Below, piece by piece: positions 8,232 through 41,510 of a DNA stretch of 64,000 nt. Each line of letters opens with the position of its first letter. The first letter of the stretch is position 1. The stretch is taken from NCBI RefSeq assembly GCF_963675165.1, contig NC_087380.1, positions 6,394,071-6,458,070 of the forward strand, written 5' to 3'. This stretch comes from Halichondria panicea (lineage: Eukaryota > Porifera > Demospongiae > Suberitida > Halichondriidae). Position numbers and translations under genes: made by a program. The notes beneath the pieces were generated by a model that saw nothing but the letters and a program-made list of their open reading frames with translations, did no database searches and had not been told where the DNA came from.

Positions 8232-9954
8232 CCGTGCATGTCTTCTTGATGAAAGCCTTGCAAACAATTTTTGGTGCCACCTTTTCCCCCGTGTAGATGA
8301 CTCACTACTCTCCTTAGTTACACTTGTCACTGTGGAGTCAACTGCATGTATCCCCTGGTGATGGTGTAGTCTTGAGTTCAGCCTCTTCTCCCTATTTAAG
8401 AAAGCATACTAACCATAATAAAGCGACAAATACACCAGGTGCAGGTACTCTTTTACTCGTGCTATTATCAACACTCACTGCTCTTTGTGATGTTCTCCAA
8501 GAAAATAATCGCTGATACCACTTTTTTTTGTGGCTTTCTTGGATTGTCTTTTCCCCTTTCTCTTCAGTATACTCTTGTCTGATCTTAGGTGGTGCTGGCT
8601 TGCTGTGAGCAGGAGATGGACTTCTATCCTCTCTCTGAATGAGCAAAGCTAGGGAAAGTAATATACGAGTCACAATCTCAACATACCTCAAAGAGGACTT
8701 CACTTGTTGATCCATGAATTAATGACACCTTTAGCACAGAAGGAGTTAGTTGACTTAGTTATGCAATTTGATCACTTCTGAGAGCCATAATAGGTTACTG
8801 GTACAATCTCTAGACAAAAGAAAATAAGCTGAATGCAACCGGGCTGAATCGAATGCAAGTGTAAAGCATTGACTTGGACTTTAAATATCCTAGCAATAGC
8901 AGCCTTTAGGTCGCGATACATTGCAAGAGAATCAGTGTCAAGCTTGAAGCAAAGTTTAACGCTTTTTTTTATCATCATCCAATCGGCTGATCTTGCAAGG
9001 CTTTACTTTCCATGCGTTGAGAAATCTTCTGAGCTCAGTGAAATACTTAGCCAAATCACGTTGATCACTTTTAGTTCCAAACTTTTTAATCACATCTTCT
9101 AGAATCTCAAAATCAAGGAACGACCAAAATGGAGAGATAATGACAAAGATTTCGTCAACACTAGCAGCCTTTCTGAGGTCTTCCTGCTGGTCAGCAAGCA
9201 GCATGTCACTCTGTTTATGAATCACAGCACGGGACGATCGATACGATGTGAGGAGGGCTACCAAGGACATCAACTTAACAATCTTCTTCTTCTTCAAAGA
9301 TTCTCTTGTTGCTGTTTGCAGGTTAGCAAACTTCTTCTCAATGGTTTTGATATCATTTGTCAGTTGCTGTTCATCATTGCTCCTATAGTTCCTTTTCTCC
9401 CCGTGGCCAGTTTCTTTGGGGGGGGGGGTTAACATTAATAGCTCTATTATAAACATACAAATTTACCTGGAGAACAGTATTTCAGCTCCAACTTCTCTGC
9501 TAATCGTATTTCACGAACCAGAGCTGACCGTAGAGCATCAATCAGTTGTTCCCATGTGGCTCCTATTGTCACCCGTAACCAATCAAGCAGGACTGCCTCT
9601 AATCGAATGGACGTTATGCTTTTCTCTTGTTCGATTGCATCGAGGGTACCAGGAGTTAACCCCAGCTTCAAACCTATCGGCCGCCACTTAGCCCTCACTT
9701 CAAACAATGCTTCATATAATAAGCTGTAAATCACTTGTCTCTAGACCTGTACATAAAAACAGACCATGTCATACGTAGTGCTGTGTGACATATGTGTGTG
9801 AAGGGTACAACCATGCACATTTATTATATAGAGCTATATATTTACTATCATTATTATATATATAGCTAATCTATACATGTCAATCTAAATAAATGGTCCA
9901 ACCTTCTATCTCATCCCTGATCACTTCAATCTTAGTAGAATCTTTTGAGGCCAT
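8232..9954 (-). pseudogene. Death-domain gene copy B, disrupted
   Basis: Recognisable exons: 9903-9954, 9467-9746, 8687-9413, 8479-8634, 8232-8391. Exon 2 is 280 bp where the other copies have 282, 291 or 297 (all multiples of three), so the frame is lost before the death domain. Exon 3 is 727 bp, shifted at a poly-T run near 8965 and by an extra 7 bp near 8790. The death-domain core (VRAKWRPIGLKL, WEQLIDALRSALV) is still readable. Spacing to orphan exon B and SREK1-like copy 2 mirrors copy A. Confidence 0.75.
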
Positions 9955-34220: not shown

Positions 34221-36250
34221 CATTTCAGGTATATTCATCTGTTCCTGCCTTGATGAATGCCTTGAAAACAATCTTTGGTACCACCTTTTCCCCCGTGTAG
34301 ATGACTCACTACTCTCCTTAGTTACTCTTGTCACTGTGGGCTCAACTGTTTCCCCTGGTGATGGTGTAGTCTTGGGTTCAGCCTCTTCTCCCTATTTAAG
34401 AAGGCATACTAACCATAATAAAACGACAAATACACTGATATGTCCAGGTGCAGGTACTCTTTTACTCGTGCTATTATCTACACTCACTGCTCTTTGTGAT
34501 GTTCTCCAAGAAAATAATCGCTGATACCACTTTTTTTCGTGGCTTTCTTGGATTGTCTTTTCCCCTTTCTCTTCAGTATACTCTTGTCTGATCTTAGGTG
34601 GTGGTACTGGCTTGCTATGAGCAGGAGATGGACTTCTATCCTCTCTCTGAATGAGCAAAGCTAGTGAAAGTAATATACGAGTCACAATCTCAACATACCT
34701 CAAAGAGGACTTCACTTGTTGATCCATGAATTAATGACACCTTTAGCACAGAAGGAATTATTTGACTTAGTTGTGCAATTTGATCACTTCTGAGAGCCAT
34801 AATAGGTACAATCTCTAGACAAAAGAAAATAAGCTGAATGCAACCGGGCTCAATTGAATGCAAGTGTAAAGCATAGACTTGGATTTCAAATATCCTAGCA
34901 ATAGCAGCCTTTAGGTCACGATAAATTGCAAGAGAATCGGTGTCAAGCTTGAAGCAAAGTTTCATTCGAGTTTTACCATCATCCAATCGGCTGATCTTAC
35001 AAGGCTTTGCTTTCCATGTGTTGAGAAATTCTTTGAGCTCAGTGACATACGTAGCTAAATTATGTCGATCGCTGTCAGCTCCATAAGATTCAATCACGTC
35101 TTCTAGAATCTCAAAATCAAGGAATGACCAAAATGGAGAGACAATGACAAAAATTTCGTCAACACTATCAGCCCTTTTGAGATTTTCCTGCTGGTCAAGT
35201 AGCAGCATATTACTCTCACTCTTAATCACAGCACGGGACGTTCGATACGATGTGAGGAGGGCTACCAGGGACATCAATTCAACATTACACTTCTTTAGAG
35301 ATTCTCTCGTTGCTGTTTGCAGACGAATATACTTTCTCTCAATGGTTTTGATATCGCTTGTCAGTTGCTGTTTGTCATCCTCACCACTGTGCTTTCTTTT
35401 CCTCTTTTCACTGGGGACAGTTTCTATAGGGAAAAATTAATGTATCGTCTTTTTATACTTATAATACTTACCTGGAAAACTGTGTTCCAGCTCCAACTTC
35501 TCTGCTAGTTGATTTGCACCAACTAGAACTGATCGTAGAGCATCAATCAGTTGTTCCCATGTGGCTGCTGTTGCCCCCCGTAGCCAATCGAGCAGGACTG
35601 CCTCTAATCGATCAGATGGATTGATTTTCATCTGTTCAATTGCATCGAGTGTACCGGGAGTCAACCCCAGCTCCAGACCTATCGGCCGCCACTTGGCCCT
35701 CACTTCAAACAATGCTCCATATATAAGCTTTAAATCACCTGTCTCTAAGCCTAGGGTTGTTTCTGTAAACAAAATATACCATATTATGTTACCACCATAG
35801 ATTAGCTGGTGTATAATTTAAATTTAAGCGCCAACTCAGATTGAACACTATTATTAAAATGCATGCATTTGCTATGCTAGCCTCGATCGCAGGCCGCACT
35901 TCACTCAGGGAAGTGGGCCTGGTATCGATTGCTTGCGCATGCACTAAATATCCCCCGGTATCTGGGGACTTTGGATAACATCGTATATGCTCAGTAAAAT
36001 AATGACATCACAACGAACGGAAAAGCGTGCCAACTCAAAGTGTACATAATTACATGTATATAGATCTAGATCTCTATACAGGGCTAGGGGATAGTCTTGC
36101 AAGTGCGGCCCCTGCACTCACTGAGCAGGACTTCCAAGACTAACAGGGGGAAGGTAGATATCTCAAAACTTAATTAAGGTATAAAGAGATGGTCAAACCT
36201 TCTATCTCATCCCTGATCTTTTCAATCCTATCATCATTTATTGTGGCCAT
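34221..36250 (-). CDS. Death-domain protein, copy D
   Basis: Exons: 36199-36250, 35472-35762, 34699-35423, 34488-34646, 34221-34391 (466 codons, all in frame), with a good donor after 34221. Start MATINDDRIEKIRDEIE; death domain (FEVRAKWRPIGLEL, WEQLIDALRSVLVGA); coiled coil; alpha/beta-like domain (LEDVIESYGADSD, YRDLKAAIARIF). Exons 4 and 5 carry KKWYQRLFSWRTSQR and KRWYQRLFSRHSSRQ, a repeated basic-aromatic motif. The intron 34392-34487 is open and would encode ..HISVFVVLLWLVCLLK and a stop. No in-strand 3' exon follows directly: the next tail-exon copies (29.9 and 33.5 kb) are inverted, so the 3' end is uncertain. Confidence 0.75.
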
Positions 36251-37304: not shown

Positions 37305-37436
37305 CTGCAGGGAGTGTGCATGTACTGTGATTACAAGACACGCATGAAGACATTGAAAAAGTGAGTCCACTACATATGTAAGGAAAACCCAATTTTCGGC
37401 TCTATCAATGTAAGTAAACAAAACATTGACAACCAG

Positions 37437-37540
37437 AATGCAACCGGACTCAATCGAATGCAAGTGCAAAGCATAGACTTGGACTTAGCAATAGCAATCT
37501 TTATTGAGCTCAGTGACATACTCAGCCAAATTATGTCGAA
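37437..37540 (-). pseudogene. Remnant of DD exon 3
   Basis: Matches two separated pieces of exon 3 (LHLHSIE..region and LAEYVTEL-like region) joined by a deletion. Confidence 0.5.
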
Positions 37541-38301
37541 TTTCCATCTCCCGGACCCTCCGCCGCGTGGGGGCTTTGCCCCCCATTCATTTTTCTGCCC
37601 CTCACCTAAAACATCTTCTTACGGCCCTGTTACTCTGTGCTTTGCTCCCACTGACTGTTTGGCTACAGACCATGTAAATAACATGCAGTTGCTTCAAGTC
37701 AAGCCATCAGATAGGCTTCTGTTTCCATTCAGCTCCTCTCCTATAATGACTGTGCGGAATTCAATTCTGTCAACAAATGCAATCAACAATAATAACGGAA
37801 CATTATACATAACTATACCTCTTCACCTCTTCTAATAGTTTTGGCAAAACAGCATTAGCACAGCGCAGTTGGCTCAGGTATTGCCCGGCTCGGATTTTGT
37901 CCCAGCTAGAAATGCCCTTGCGCAAATCGAAATTGTACCCTATTGCCTAGCCGAAACGCGGCCAATACTGGCACAGATGCCCCTCCATAACACACAACCA
38001 TAATAATTATTAGCAAGCATGCATGCACGTTCACATCGCATTTAATCTCAAAATGGGAAGACTAGATCTAGAAGTGTGCGCGCTTATTTCCCAGGAAATA
38101 TACAATGCATCTGACATCAGCACATGTAGAAAACATAAGCCCACGTGATCGAGTTTCCATCCCCCTCCCTCCACTACCTATGACTCACAGCCTCATTAAT
38201 TGAATAGTGATGACGCAATTTAAGACAAATGCGGTTCCACATATACTACAGGAGTTCAACACTTTTGTATAATTATAATAGGAGAATGCAATGCTACAAA
38301 G
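37541..38301. other. Intergenic, nothing recognised
   Basis: No splice-bounded open frame and no repeat of the families seen elsewhere in the window. Confidence 0.5.
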
Positions 38302-41300
38302 TCAATCATTTGCATATAGGATACGGTGATCTAAAGAGCTAAAAGTGTTAGCAACAATAGTACAATGACAAGCATTGGCTTTGTCGACTGAGAAATTCTG
38401 TAACTTTTTGAAAACTTCGTGAGCTTGAATCATCTTGTACGTTCTCTTGCTATCGACAGCTCCAATGCGAACACCTGTTCCAACTCCAGCACCACGGCCC
38501 CTCATACCAAGACCACCTAGAATTGCGCCAACAATTCCGCCCACAATCGCACCCGCTACAGGGACAACGGAACCAATCAAAGCCCCTCCAATTATTCCTC
38601 CAGCAAATCCTGAGGCAGTGCCAGCCAAAGGGATAGCCAAAGCGACAACACCACCTCCAGCTACAGGGGCAAGGGAACCAGCCAAAGTTGTCCCTCCAGC
38701 AATGCCAGCAACAGCGCCTCCAGCAATCCCTGTGGCAGTGCCAACAGCTGAAGCACCAATCACAAGTGGTTTACTACCGTATACACGAACCAGACAGTCG
38801 GCTTGAACAGTTAGATACAAAATGTGAGTCGAGATATTTTGCTTGTGTTTCCTTTGGGCGTTAGGTGGAATAGGTCTTGGTTGCTCATCAAGCTGTTCAT
38901 TTGCAGTGAAATGGACACTACCTTCGATTGCACCAGTTAGCGGTTGTTGAGCTAAGTTTAAATGTGCGCTTGCATTAGCAGAGGGGTTGCCTGGAAACAA
39001 GTATTCTCGTTCTGTACGATTGGTCTCAACGAGTTGTTGACCCCCGAGTACACATGATGGGGCGACAGGTTCAATTCTTGTCACACTAATAGCATCGAGG
39101 AATGTCTGCAAGTCAACTCTGTCAATGTGAGATGACTCATTAAACTTTTCTTTGGCTACAGCTTCGACAGCAGCCTGCACTTTCTTTCTGATTTCAGTTG
39201 TAATCTCATTTTCAGCCATTTTGTTCTATATAATACATGTATAGCATGAAAGTCTATATAAATATATAAATAAGGAAAAAGGCGGGAAAATAATATACGA
39301 GTCACAATCTCAACATACCTCAAAGATGATTTCACTTGTTGATCCATGAATTAATGACACCTTTAGCACAGAAGGAATTATTTGTGCAATTTGATCACAC
39401 TGGTGAAATGATAATTGTACTATCCCTAGAAAGAAAAAAATAAGCTGAATGGAACCATCCTCGATTGAATGCAAGTGTAAAGTGTAGACAGGCACTTTAA
39501 GAATCCTAGCAATAGCAGCCTTTAGGTCACGATAAATTGCAAGAGATTCAGCGTCAAGCTTGAAGCAAAATTTGACTCTTTTTTTATCATCGTCCAATCG
39601 GCTGTTCTTGCAAGGCTCTACTTTCCATGTGTTGAGAAATTCTCTGAGCTCAATGAAATACGTAGCCAAATCACTTTGATCACTTTCAGCTCCAAACTTA
39701 TTAATCACGTCTTCTAGAATCTCAAAGTCAAGGAATGACCAAAATGGAGAGACGATGACAAAGACTTCGTCAACACTAGCAGCCCTTCTGAGCTCTTCCT
39801 GCTGGTGGGCAAGCAGCATGTTACTCTCACTCTCAATCACAGCACGGGACGATCGATACGATGTGAGGAGGGCTACCAGGGAAAGCAAGTCAACAGTGTC
39901 ACTCTTCTTCAAAGATTCTCTCGTTGCTGTTTGCAGGTTAGTAAACTTCTTCTCAATGGTTTTGATATCATTTGTCAGTTGCTGTTCATCATCGCTTCTA
40001 TACTTCCTTTTCTCCCTGTGGCCAGTTTCTATGAGGGGGAGGATTAATTAAGTGCCAGTGGTAAACACAATGTACAAAACCTTTGCGAAAATTTCGCAAC
40101 AGTTTTAATGGTCTATGCCCCACAGTCAATTGAAGCAATCGGGGAGTTAACATTAATAGCTCTATCGGTATAATTATATAAATATAAAAATTACCTGGAG
40201 GACAGTACTTCAGCTCCAACTTCTCTGCTAGTTGAATTTCACCGACCAGAGCTGACCGTAGAGCATCAATCACTTGTTTCCATGAGGCTCCTCTTGTCAC
40301 CCGTAGCCAATCAAGCAGGACCGCCTCTAATCGATTGGACGTTTTGCTTTTCTCCTGTTCGATTGCCTCCAGGGTACCTGGAGTCAAACTCAGCTCCAGA
40401 CCTATCGGCCGCCACTTAGCCCTCACTTCAAACAATGCTCCATATATAAGCTGTAAATCACTTGTGCCTAAACCTAGGTTCGTTCCTGTACACAAAAACA
40501 GACTATGTCATACCATAGATAAACGAAAGAAAGGGATAGGCAACGCCCAGCACTTCCGTTGGATGAGGCTAGTTGCGTAAAAAGGGGTGTGTAATGAGCA
40601 AAAAGGGGTGTGTGCACTCAAAATGTCAGTAAAGATTTTATAGCAAGCTGTGCTCTTGAGGACCAGATACACTTAGACATAGGCTATTCATCTTTTAGAG
40701 CAAAGTGATGAAGAAGTGAGCTCCAAAGGGGGTGTCAGTACTCTCTACAAACCATAACAGGTATGTTCCCAAGTCCTTCAAATGCCATCTCTTCGATCAC
40801 ACAATACAGATAAAGATGCTTGTGTTCCACTTTCTAATACCTAAGCTGTGTCTTAGAGCACTTCAAACTAGATTACCATGTACAGTAAGAGCAGGAGAGC
40901 TAGGTACGCAAACTTTCTGGACACTTCGGACAAACGTTTCATGGTGCTGCCACTACTTCACTACATTATGAGCTGGCAAATATGCTTTGTTCCATGTAGT
41001 TATAAACACTCTGTGAAACGTACATGTTATTTCATATTGGAAAAGGTACGTGTTATTTCACACAAATCAAGCTGAATAAAAGAAAGCTCGGCACTAACAT
41101 AGCAGCTGTAGCTATCAGTAGTGCTGGGTGTATGTGTGCATGATGCCTGGTTGCTTTAAATTTCTCTTTTAGGCCCCCTACGAGAAAACTAAGCAGATAT
41201 AGGGATCATTGTGTACTTTCTTGAGCGCAACTCGCCTCCAACCAGAGGGTGTGACGCCACACACTGCATTTACCTAGCATCACGTGGGGCGTTGCCTATC

Positions 41301-41510
41301 CCTTTCTTTCGTTTATCTATGGTCATACGTAGTGTGACATGTGAGGGTAAAACCAGTCCACATAGTCTAGAGCTAGCTATAATTATAGTCTACTATACTC
41401 TCATGGTTTAACTTAGCTAGACAGATACAATTTACATGTCAATCTAAATAAATGGTCCAACCTTCTATCTCATCCCTGATTACTTCAATCCTAGCATCTT
41501 TTGAGGCCAT
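38302..41510 (-). CDS. Death-domain protein, copy E, with glycine-zipper-like C-terminus
   Basis: Exons: 41462-41510, 40195-40485, 39319-40028, 38302-39225 (657 aa, all in frame; the last intron is 93 bp). Residues ~28-105 form the death domain (FEVRAKWRPIGLEL, WKQVIDALRSALVGE), ~125-155 a coiled coil, ~190-330 the alpha/beta-like domain. The last exon, unlike the other copies, encodes NKMAENEITTEIRKKVQ, a hydrophilic stretch, then about 100 residues of Gly/Ala-rich hydrophobic sequence with GxxxG spacing (AIVGGIVGAILGGLG) and a short charged end. Such stretches occur in membrane-inserting proteins, so a membrane effector is inferred. It lies about 90 bp downstream of the XRRA1-like stop; intron 1 holds an 808-bp transposon. 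Confidence 0.75.
40514..41321. mobile_element. CATAGATA-family element 3 (808 bp)
   Basis: Ends CATAGATAAACGAAAGAAAG..GGGATAGGCAACGCCC and the reverse complement. The 7-bp duplication GTCATAC is at 40507-40513 and 41322-41328. DD copy B at about 9768 has the same intron sequence without the insert (CATGTCATACGTAGTG). Confidence 0.9.

Follow-up and report, generated by a model that had tools for sequence, protein, structure and literature searches.

Copy E of a tandem gene array in the sponge Halichondria panicea raises the question of whether a Death-domain gene at this locus ends in a glycine-rich, candidate membrane-inserting segment, or whether two genes lie end to end. The locus lies within a window of 64,000 nucleotides, the whole stretch of DNA analysed here (C4:6394071-6458070, from a genome of 131 Mb in 39 contigs). 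C4 coordinates refer to the whole chromosome, and all other positions refer to the window.

Gene Model of Copy E

On the minus strand, between 41510 and 38302, four exons join in frame to give 657 residues followed by a stop codon, and the introns have GT...AG ends. Exon 1 (41462..41510) starts with the ATG, carries MASKDARIEVIRDEIEG and joins in frame through a GT donor; other copies in the array have similar first exons. Exon 2 (40195..40485) contains a Death domain, the sole Pfam family found on this exon, whose match to PF00531 lies just below the cut-off (21.9 bits against 22.6, E=1.9e-4). Exon 3 (39319..40028) comprises a helical part followed by a TRADD-N-like alpha/beta region and ends in SEIIFE. 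Intron 3 (39226..39318) has 93 bases and normal GT...AG ends, and the in-frame junction through it agrees with that proposed in the initial annotation. Exon 4 (38302..39225) has 307 codons, of which two (NK) precede the 305-codon frame that starts at ATG 39219, and its sequence points to a captured glycine-zipper gene. Within intron 1, the stretch 40499-41336 is mostly one element, whose 50-base inverted ends are 90% alike. Downstream of copy E, at 37428-37484, lies a short exon-3 fragment with 63% identity over 19 residues.

An Array of Death/TRADD-N-like Genes with Different Tails

Copy E belongs to a tandem array of ten copies (C4:6.32-6.43 Mb), each with a Death exon and with tails that differ, as expected from the earlier description of a clustered Death-domain family with a common N-terminus. 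A tree built from the Death and exon-3 pieces places E and C as sisters with 99% support, and their N-terminal parts are 94.9% identical over 1.2 kb. Death-domain matches in the genome number at least 150 (of 503 candidates, 150 were scored), and matches to exon 3 at least 108, the broken copy B being counted as three. In copy B, exon 3 (8687-9414) is broken by a frame change and a stop. Copies c1 (C4:6324605-6325650) and A (519-1564) are near-identical and lie 70 kb apart, which may reflect either a segmental duplication of recent date or a duplication made in the assembly. When the ordinary tail exons are translated through to the stop codon, they finish with a hydrophobic stretch, as at 34390-34700 (HISVFVVLLWLVCLLK in copy D) and at corresponding positions of other copies. 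This stretch follows a donor-like SQRA|GTGAGT, and could be either a tail anchor or an intron pyrimidine tract.

The alpha/beta region of exon 3 is very likely a TRADD-N domain, though formally above no cut-off. A Pfam scan of exon 3 of E gave no match, and NCBIfam gave one (E=0.084). In the genome, the TRADD-like_N family (PF20694) has eight weak matches (E 0.04-0.89), all of them below the cut-off and outside the ten array copies; all eight fall on places homologous to exon 3, which together make up <0.1% of the genome. One of the 14 control genomes also matches PF20694, below the cut-off. Eight divergent exon-3 homologues were fetched, and seven were scanned and aligned with the eighth left out; two of these seven match PF20694 (E 0.021 and 0.11), and in one of the two a chance-like match ranks higher. 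NCOA6_TRADD-N (PF13820) matches neither the genome of the sponge nor any of the 14 controls, and is hence uninformative. Furthermore, the turn between beta2 and beta3 has Gly in all 11 aligned rows (four window copies, which are close paralogues, and the seven divergent homologues), followed by Ser in three and Cys in eight. The TRADD-N turn is described as a tiny residue plus Ser, occasionally Cys, in the portion of the TRADD-N survey used here (PMC8195603), so that Cys is commoner in the present rows than that wording suggests. An AlphaFold2 model of exon 3 built from four rows is of low confidence (mean pLDDT 36.9), too poor for comparison with the RRM-like fold of four strands and two helices that marks TRADD-N, and a further structure model is equally weak (mean pLDDT 36.7).

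Exon 4 Is Related to a Cluster of Standalone Glycine-Zipper Genes

In the frame from ATG 39219, residues 151-239 (38503..38769, coordinates derived from the residue numbers) form a run of 89 residues without D, E, K, R, H, N or Q. GxxxG motifs occur 15 times in a stretch of 102 residues, where shuffles that preserve the composition give 8.8 (P=0.004), whereas small-xxx-small motifs show no excess in the same shuffle test of exon 4 (P=0.19). The Gly/Ala-rich, glycine-zipper-like segment noted previously is therefore present, and it is predicted to insert in the membrane. The only Pfam match on exon 4 of E is the 2HCT transporter family (E=0.0016; 17.6 bits against a cut-off of 26.2). Gly-zipper_YMGG (PF13441) shares the GxxxG pattern and matches two of the 13 members of the exon-4 family alignment (best E=0.0013), but not E itself. 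Phage tail-lysin and tape-measure proteins match with E values down to 4.7e-7, mostly over the zipper. We took all three likenesses as compositional.

The outside collections searched covered prokaryotes, viruses and phages, together with the PDB, and the sponge's own genome was the sole eukaryote genome searched. The exon-4 family alignment found no relative among viral contigs, and a tblastn search of phage records found none either. The exon-4 protein gave 480 pattern matches in a collection of prokaryote, virus and phage genome contigs, of which tblastn confirmed none. In the PDB, sequence searches reached E values no better than 1.4 (exon 4) and 0.21 (exon 3 alone), and profile searches 0.28 and 0.36, respectively. 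PADLOC gave no match.

In the sponge genome, the exon-4 protein finds relatives (E up to 0.01) on C4 only, at 1.157 Mb and at 1.459-1.489 Mb, and a shorter member of the zipper family used as query adds weak zipper matches at two further places, on C14 and C10. The initial annotation had called the exon unique, which holds within the window and fails at the scale of the genome. Nine open frames of the 1.46-Mb cluster were compared; in eight the ATG follows an upstream in-frame stop by 2-17 codons, and in the ninth (g7) the start is disturbed. When the Death and TRADD-N exons of E were compared by tblastn with the surroundings of these genes, no match was better than E=1.4 across the cluster (C4:1454000-1492000), and the best around the lone 1.157-Mb copy (C4:1152000-1161000) was E=0.43. 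The nearest standalone copy (C4:1460859-1461716), 5 Mb from E on the same chromosome, has 83-84% DNA identity to exon 4. Their homology (38271..39230) takes in the coding sequence, 11 bases before the ATG and ~30 bases after the stop, and the start context AACAAAATGG at ATG 39219 is identical in the two. With a decayed copy upstream of cluster frame g5, the 5′ match stretches to ~24 bases. Judged from these open frames, the exon-4 sequence is, at its source, an independent gene with an ATG as at 39219. Copy E is chimeric, and the relatives of its last exon form this distant cluster.

Three weakly similar frames in the cluster are without the zipper (25-26% identity to copy E; E values of 0.002-0.004 to zipper members). 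They run directly from the preceding strand to the following helix, as if the zipper had been inserted into a small domain. Between C4:1470950 and 1491436, such zipper-less weak relatives lie beside zipper members, together with other single-exon frames of unknown kind.

The Junction and the Age of the Capture

The donor TTTGAG|GTATGTTGAG is present in all ten array copies. In E, the first ~35 bases of intron 3 (39318-39284, donor included) are common to the paralogues, after which the sequence diverges; no further match to the paralogues was listed for the remainder, in a search that ignores common words, and the final bases are similar to those of the decayed copy. As the sequence shows, a Death/TRADD-N tandem copy was cut off from its ordinary tail at a break ~35 bases into intron 3, and the near-exact coding sequence of a glycine-zipper gene has replaced that tail, probably by recombination. 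A retrocopy of a spliced mRNA was rejected, as no poly-A tract was seen, by inspection, in the 3′ flank of the exon-4 alignment. Two acceptors could serve the kept donor. Use of AG 39226 removes 93 bases and opens the fusion frame, and we predict, at about even chance, that splicing to this site yields one 657-residue protein. Use of AG 39254 removes 65 bases (39254-39318) and adds 13 residues, TFMLYMYYIEQNG, before a stop, with no fusion.

Exon 4 and its nearest copy differ with dN 0.111 and dS 0.237, a ratio of 0.47. Five long gaps in their DNA alignment (24, 6, 87, 12 and 9 bases) are all multiples of three, neighbouring gaps of 1 and 2 bases cancel each other, and a frame-changing gap lies in the last few codons of exon 4. 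Gaps counted on the protein alignment were dropped as evidence, since such an alignment can yield complete codons only. The E branch carries 30 nonsynonymous and 18 synonymous changes and shows only mild constraint; 26 of the 104 differences stayed unassigned. Between E and C, exon 3 has a dS of 0.027 (4 synonymous and 10 nonsynonymous changes). This value is far below the 0.237 of exon 4, so that, if the capture followed the split of E and C, most change in exon 4 predates the capture, and an open frame then does little to show that exon 4 is used in E. In a simulation of 48 neutral substitutions, 22% of frames were stop-free. Gene conversion within the array could blur these dates.

Traces of Exon 4 in Other Tails of the Array

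Exon-4 DNA was searched against the ten tails of the array (1600 bases each), one of which is that of E itself. The tail of c3 matches over 133 columns at 70% identity (E=8.7e-11). The piece concerned, 130 bases long, is in frame within the tail exon, is 80% identical to the cluster gene nearest to exon 4 of E (E=2e-28) and has normal tail sequence on either side. Copy C carries a 31-base remnant (E=2.3e-5) and c2 a doubtful 47 bases (E=0.012); the remaining six tails gave no match. Since E and C are sisters and C carries a remnant, the forerunner of E may have held such a piece before the whole gene came. C and c3 have the left edge of the zipper piece in common. The c3 piece is nearer to the cluster gene (80%) than to E (70%), which argues for separate grafts, and an E-like gene was rejected as the ancestor of c3, which keeps the normal tail before and after the piece. 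Together, these traces raise the idea that the zipper cluster serves the array as a donor whose modules were grafted repeatedly (whole in E, as a piece in c3, as a remnant in C and perhaps in c2), an idea that we regard as quite unlikely.

Alternative Explanations of the Chimeric Locus

The reading that we tentatively prefer, with a probability that we put close to even, is that E would be a Death/TRADD-N adaptor whose tail was exchanged for a membrane-inserting module. Exon 4 could instead still be an independent, intronless gene starting at ATG 39219 that landed behind E, with E ending early. Indeed, its homologues in the cluster are standalone open frames, mostly with an ATG soon after an in-frame stop and with no Death or TRADD-N neighbour; the nearest of them shares the start context, and unspliced exon 3 of E reaches a stop two codons past the donor. 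However, the donor 5′ flank amounts to 11 to ~24 bases, so that no donor promoter is visible, and the junction in E is in frame, for which the chance is one in three. In addition, the zipper piece of c3 lies in frame inside a tail exon, where no independent start is involved. On balance, we consider a surviving independent gene unlikely.

The capture might also have broken E, if its mRNA is spliced to AG 39254 and the zipper frame goes untranslated, carried along as a passenger until it decays. The resulting 65-base intron is nearer to the 52-56 bases that precede the tail exon in the four modelled paralogues (c3, c4, C and D), the capture may be young as judged from the E-C dS, and the open frame may have survived by chance, given the stop-free fraction in the simulation. 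The five long gaps in exon 4, all multiples of three, speak against such a passenger, though these gaps may predate the capture, as does, weakly, a branch-point-like TTCAT read by eye 21 bases before AG 39226. A broken copy appears to us rather unlikely. The repetitiveness of the array and the near-identity of c1 and A would also make an assembly artefact joining two loci conceivable. The N-terminal part of E, however, is 94.9% identical to that of C, and exon 4 matches its nearest relative at 83-84% only; neither half of E was thus copied from sequence already placed, and we regard such an artefact as highly improbable.

Comparison with Known TRADD-N Systems

The initial annotation had presented the locus as a candidate undescribed system, a claim that does not stand in that form: such an N-terminal unit, followed by a C-terminus that varies, has been described in Amphimedon (PMC8195603, in the portion used here), and the Gly-rich exon derives from a gene family of its own. 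According to that portion of the survey, Amphimedon has 357 TRADD-N proteins, most types having a Death-like domain ahead of TRADD-N and a variable C-terminal region after it (Kaur et al., 2021, PMC8195603). The NCOA6-clade expansion described there resembles the sponge array in the order of Death-like domain and TRADD-N, in the variable, fast-evolving C-terminus, in the large expansion and in the Gly-Ser/Cys turn (PMC8195603). The Amphimedon C-termini named in the same portion are ankyrin, SH3-LRR, kinase, MATH, SH2, PDZ, caspase, PNPase and HD, and no glycine-zipper or membrane tail is among them (PMC8195603). Bacterial TRADD-N systems with multi-TM C-termini, also variable, might form membrane pores according to the authors (PMC8195603, as far as the text used here describes them). 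They differ from E in being bacterial. Our literature search found nothing uniting a death domain, a glycine zipper and a membrane. As modelled from the DNA, E joins a known kind of adaptor to a new tail, the adaptor family itself being already described.

From the domain architectures, TRADD-N genes were placed between a constant input and a changing output (Kaur et al., PMC8195603, in the portion used here). For E in the preferred reading, an exchanged tail on a Death/TRADD-N adaptor, E would associate with other Death-domain proteins through its own Death domain, and the TRADD-N domain would bridge and keep the protein quiet, a gating as proposed in the same portion (Kaur et al., PMC8195603). 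Assembly might then cluster the zipper helices at the membrane, and either place a signalling complex there or disturb the bilayer. Such a protein could have a cell-death or defence function.

The exchange of the tail is readable at base level, in that the recipient copy, the kept donor site, the break point, the donor family and the lesser grafts all lie on one chromosome. If repeated grafting were true, the animal would keep swapping the membrane output of a fixed death-domain input. If the fusion is expressed, copy E would give an early-branching animal a death-domain adaptor that carries its own membrane module.
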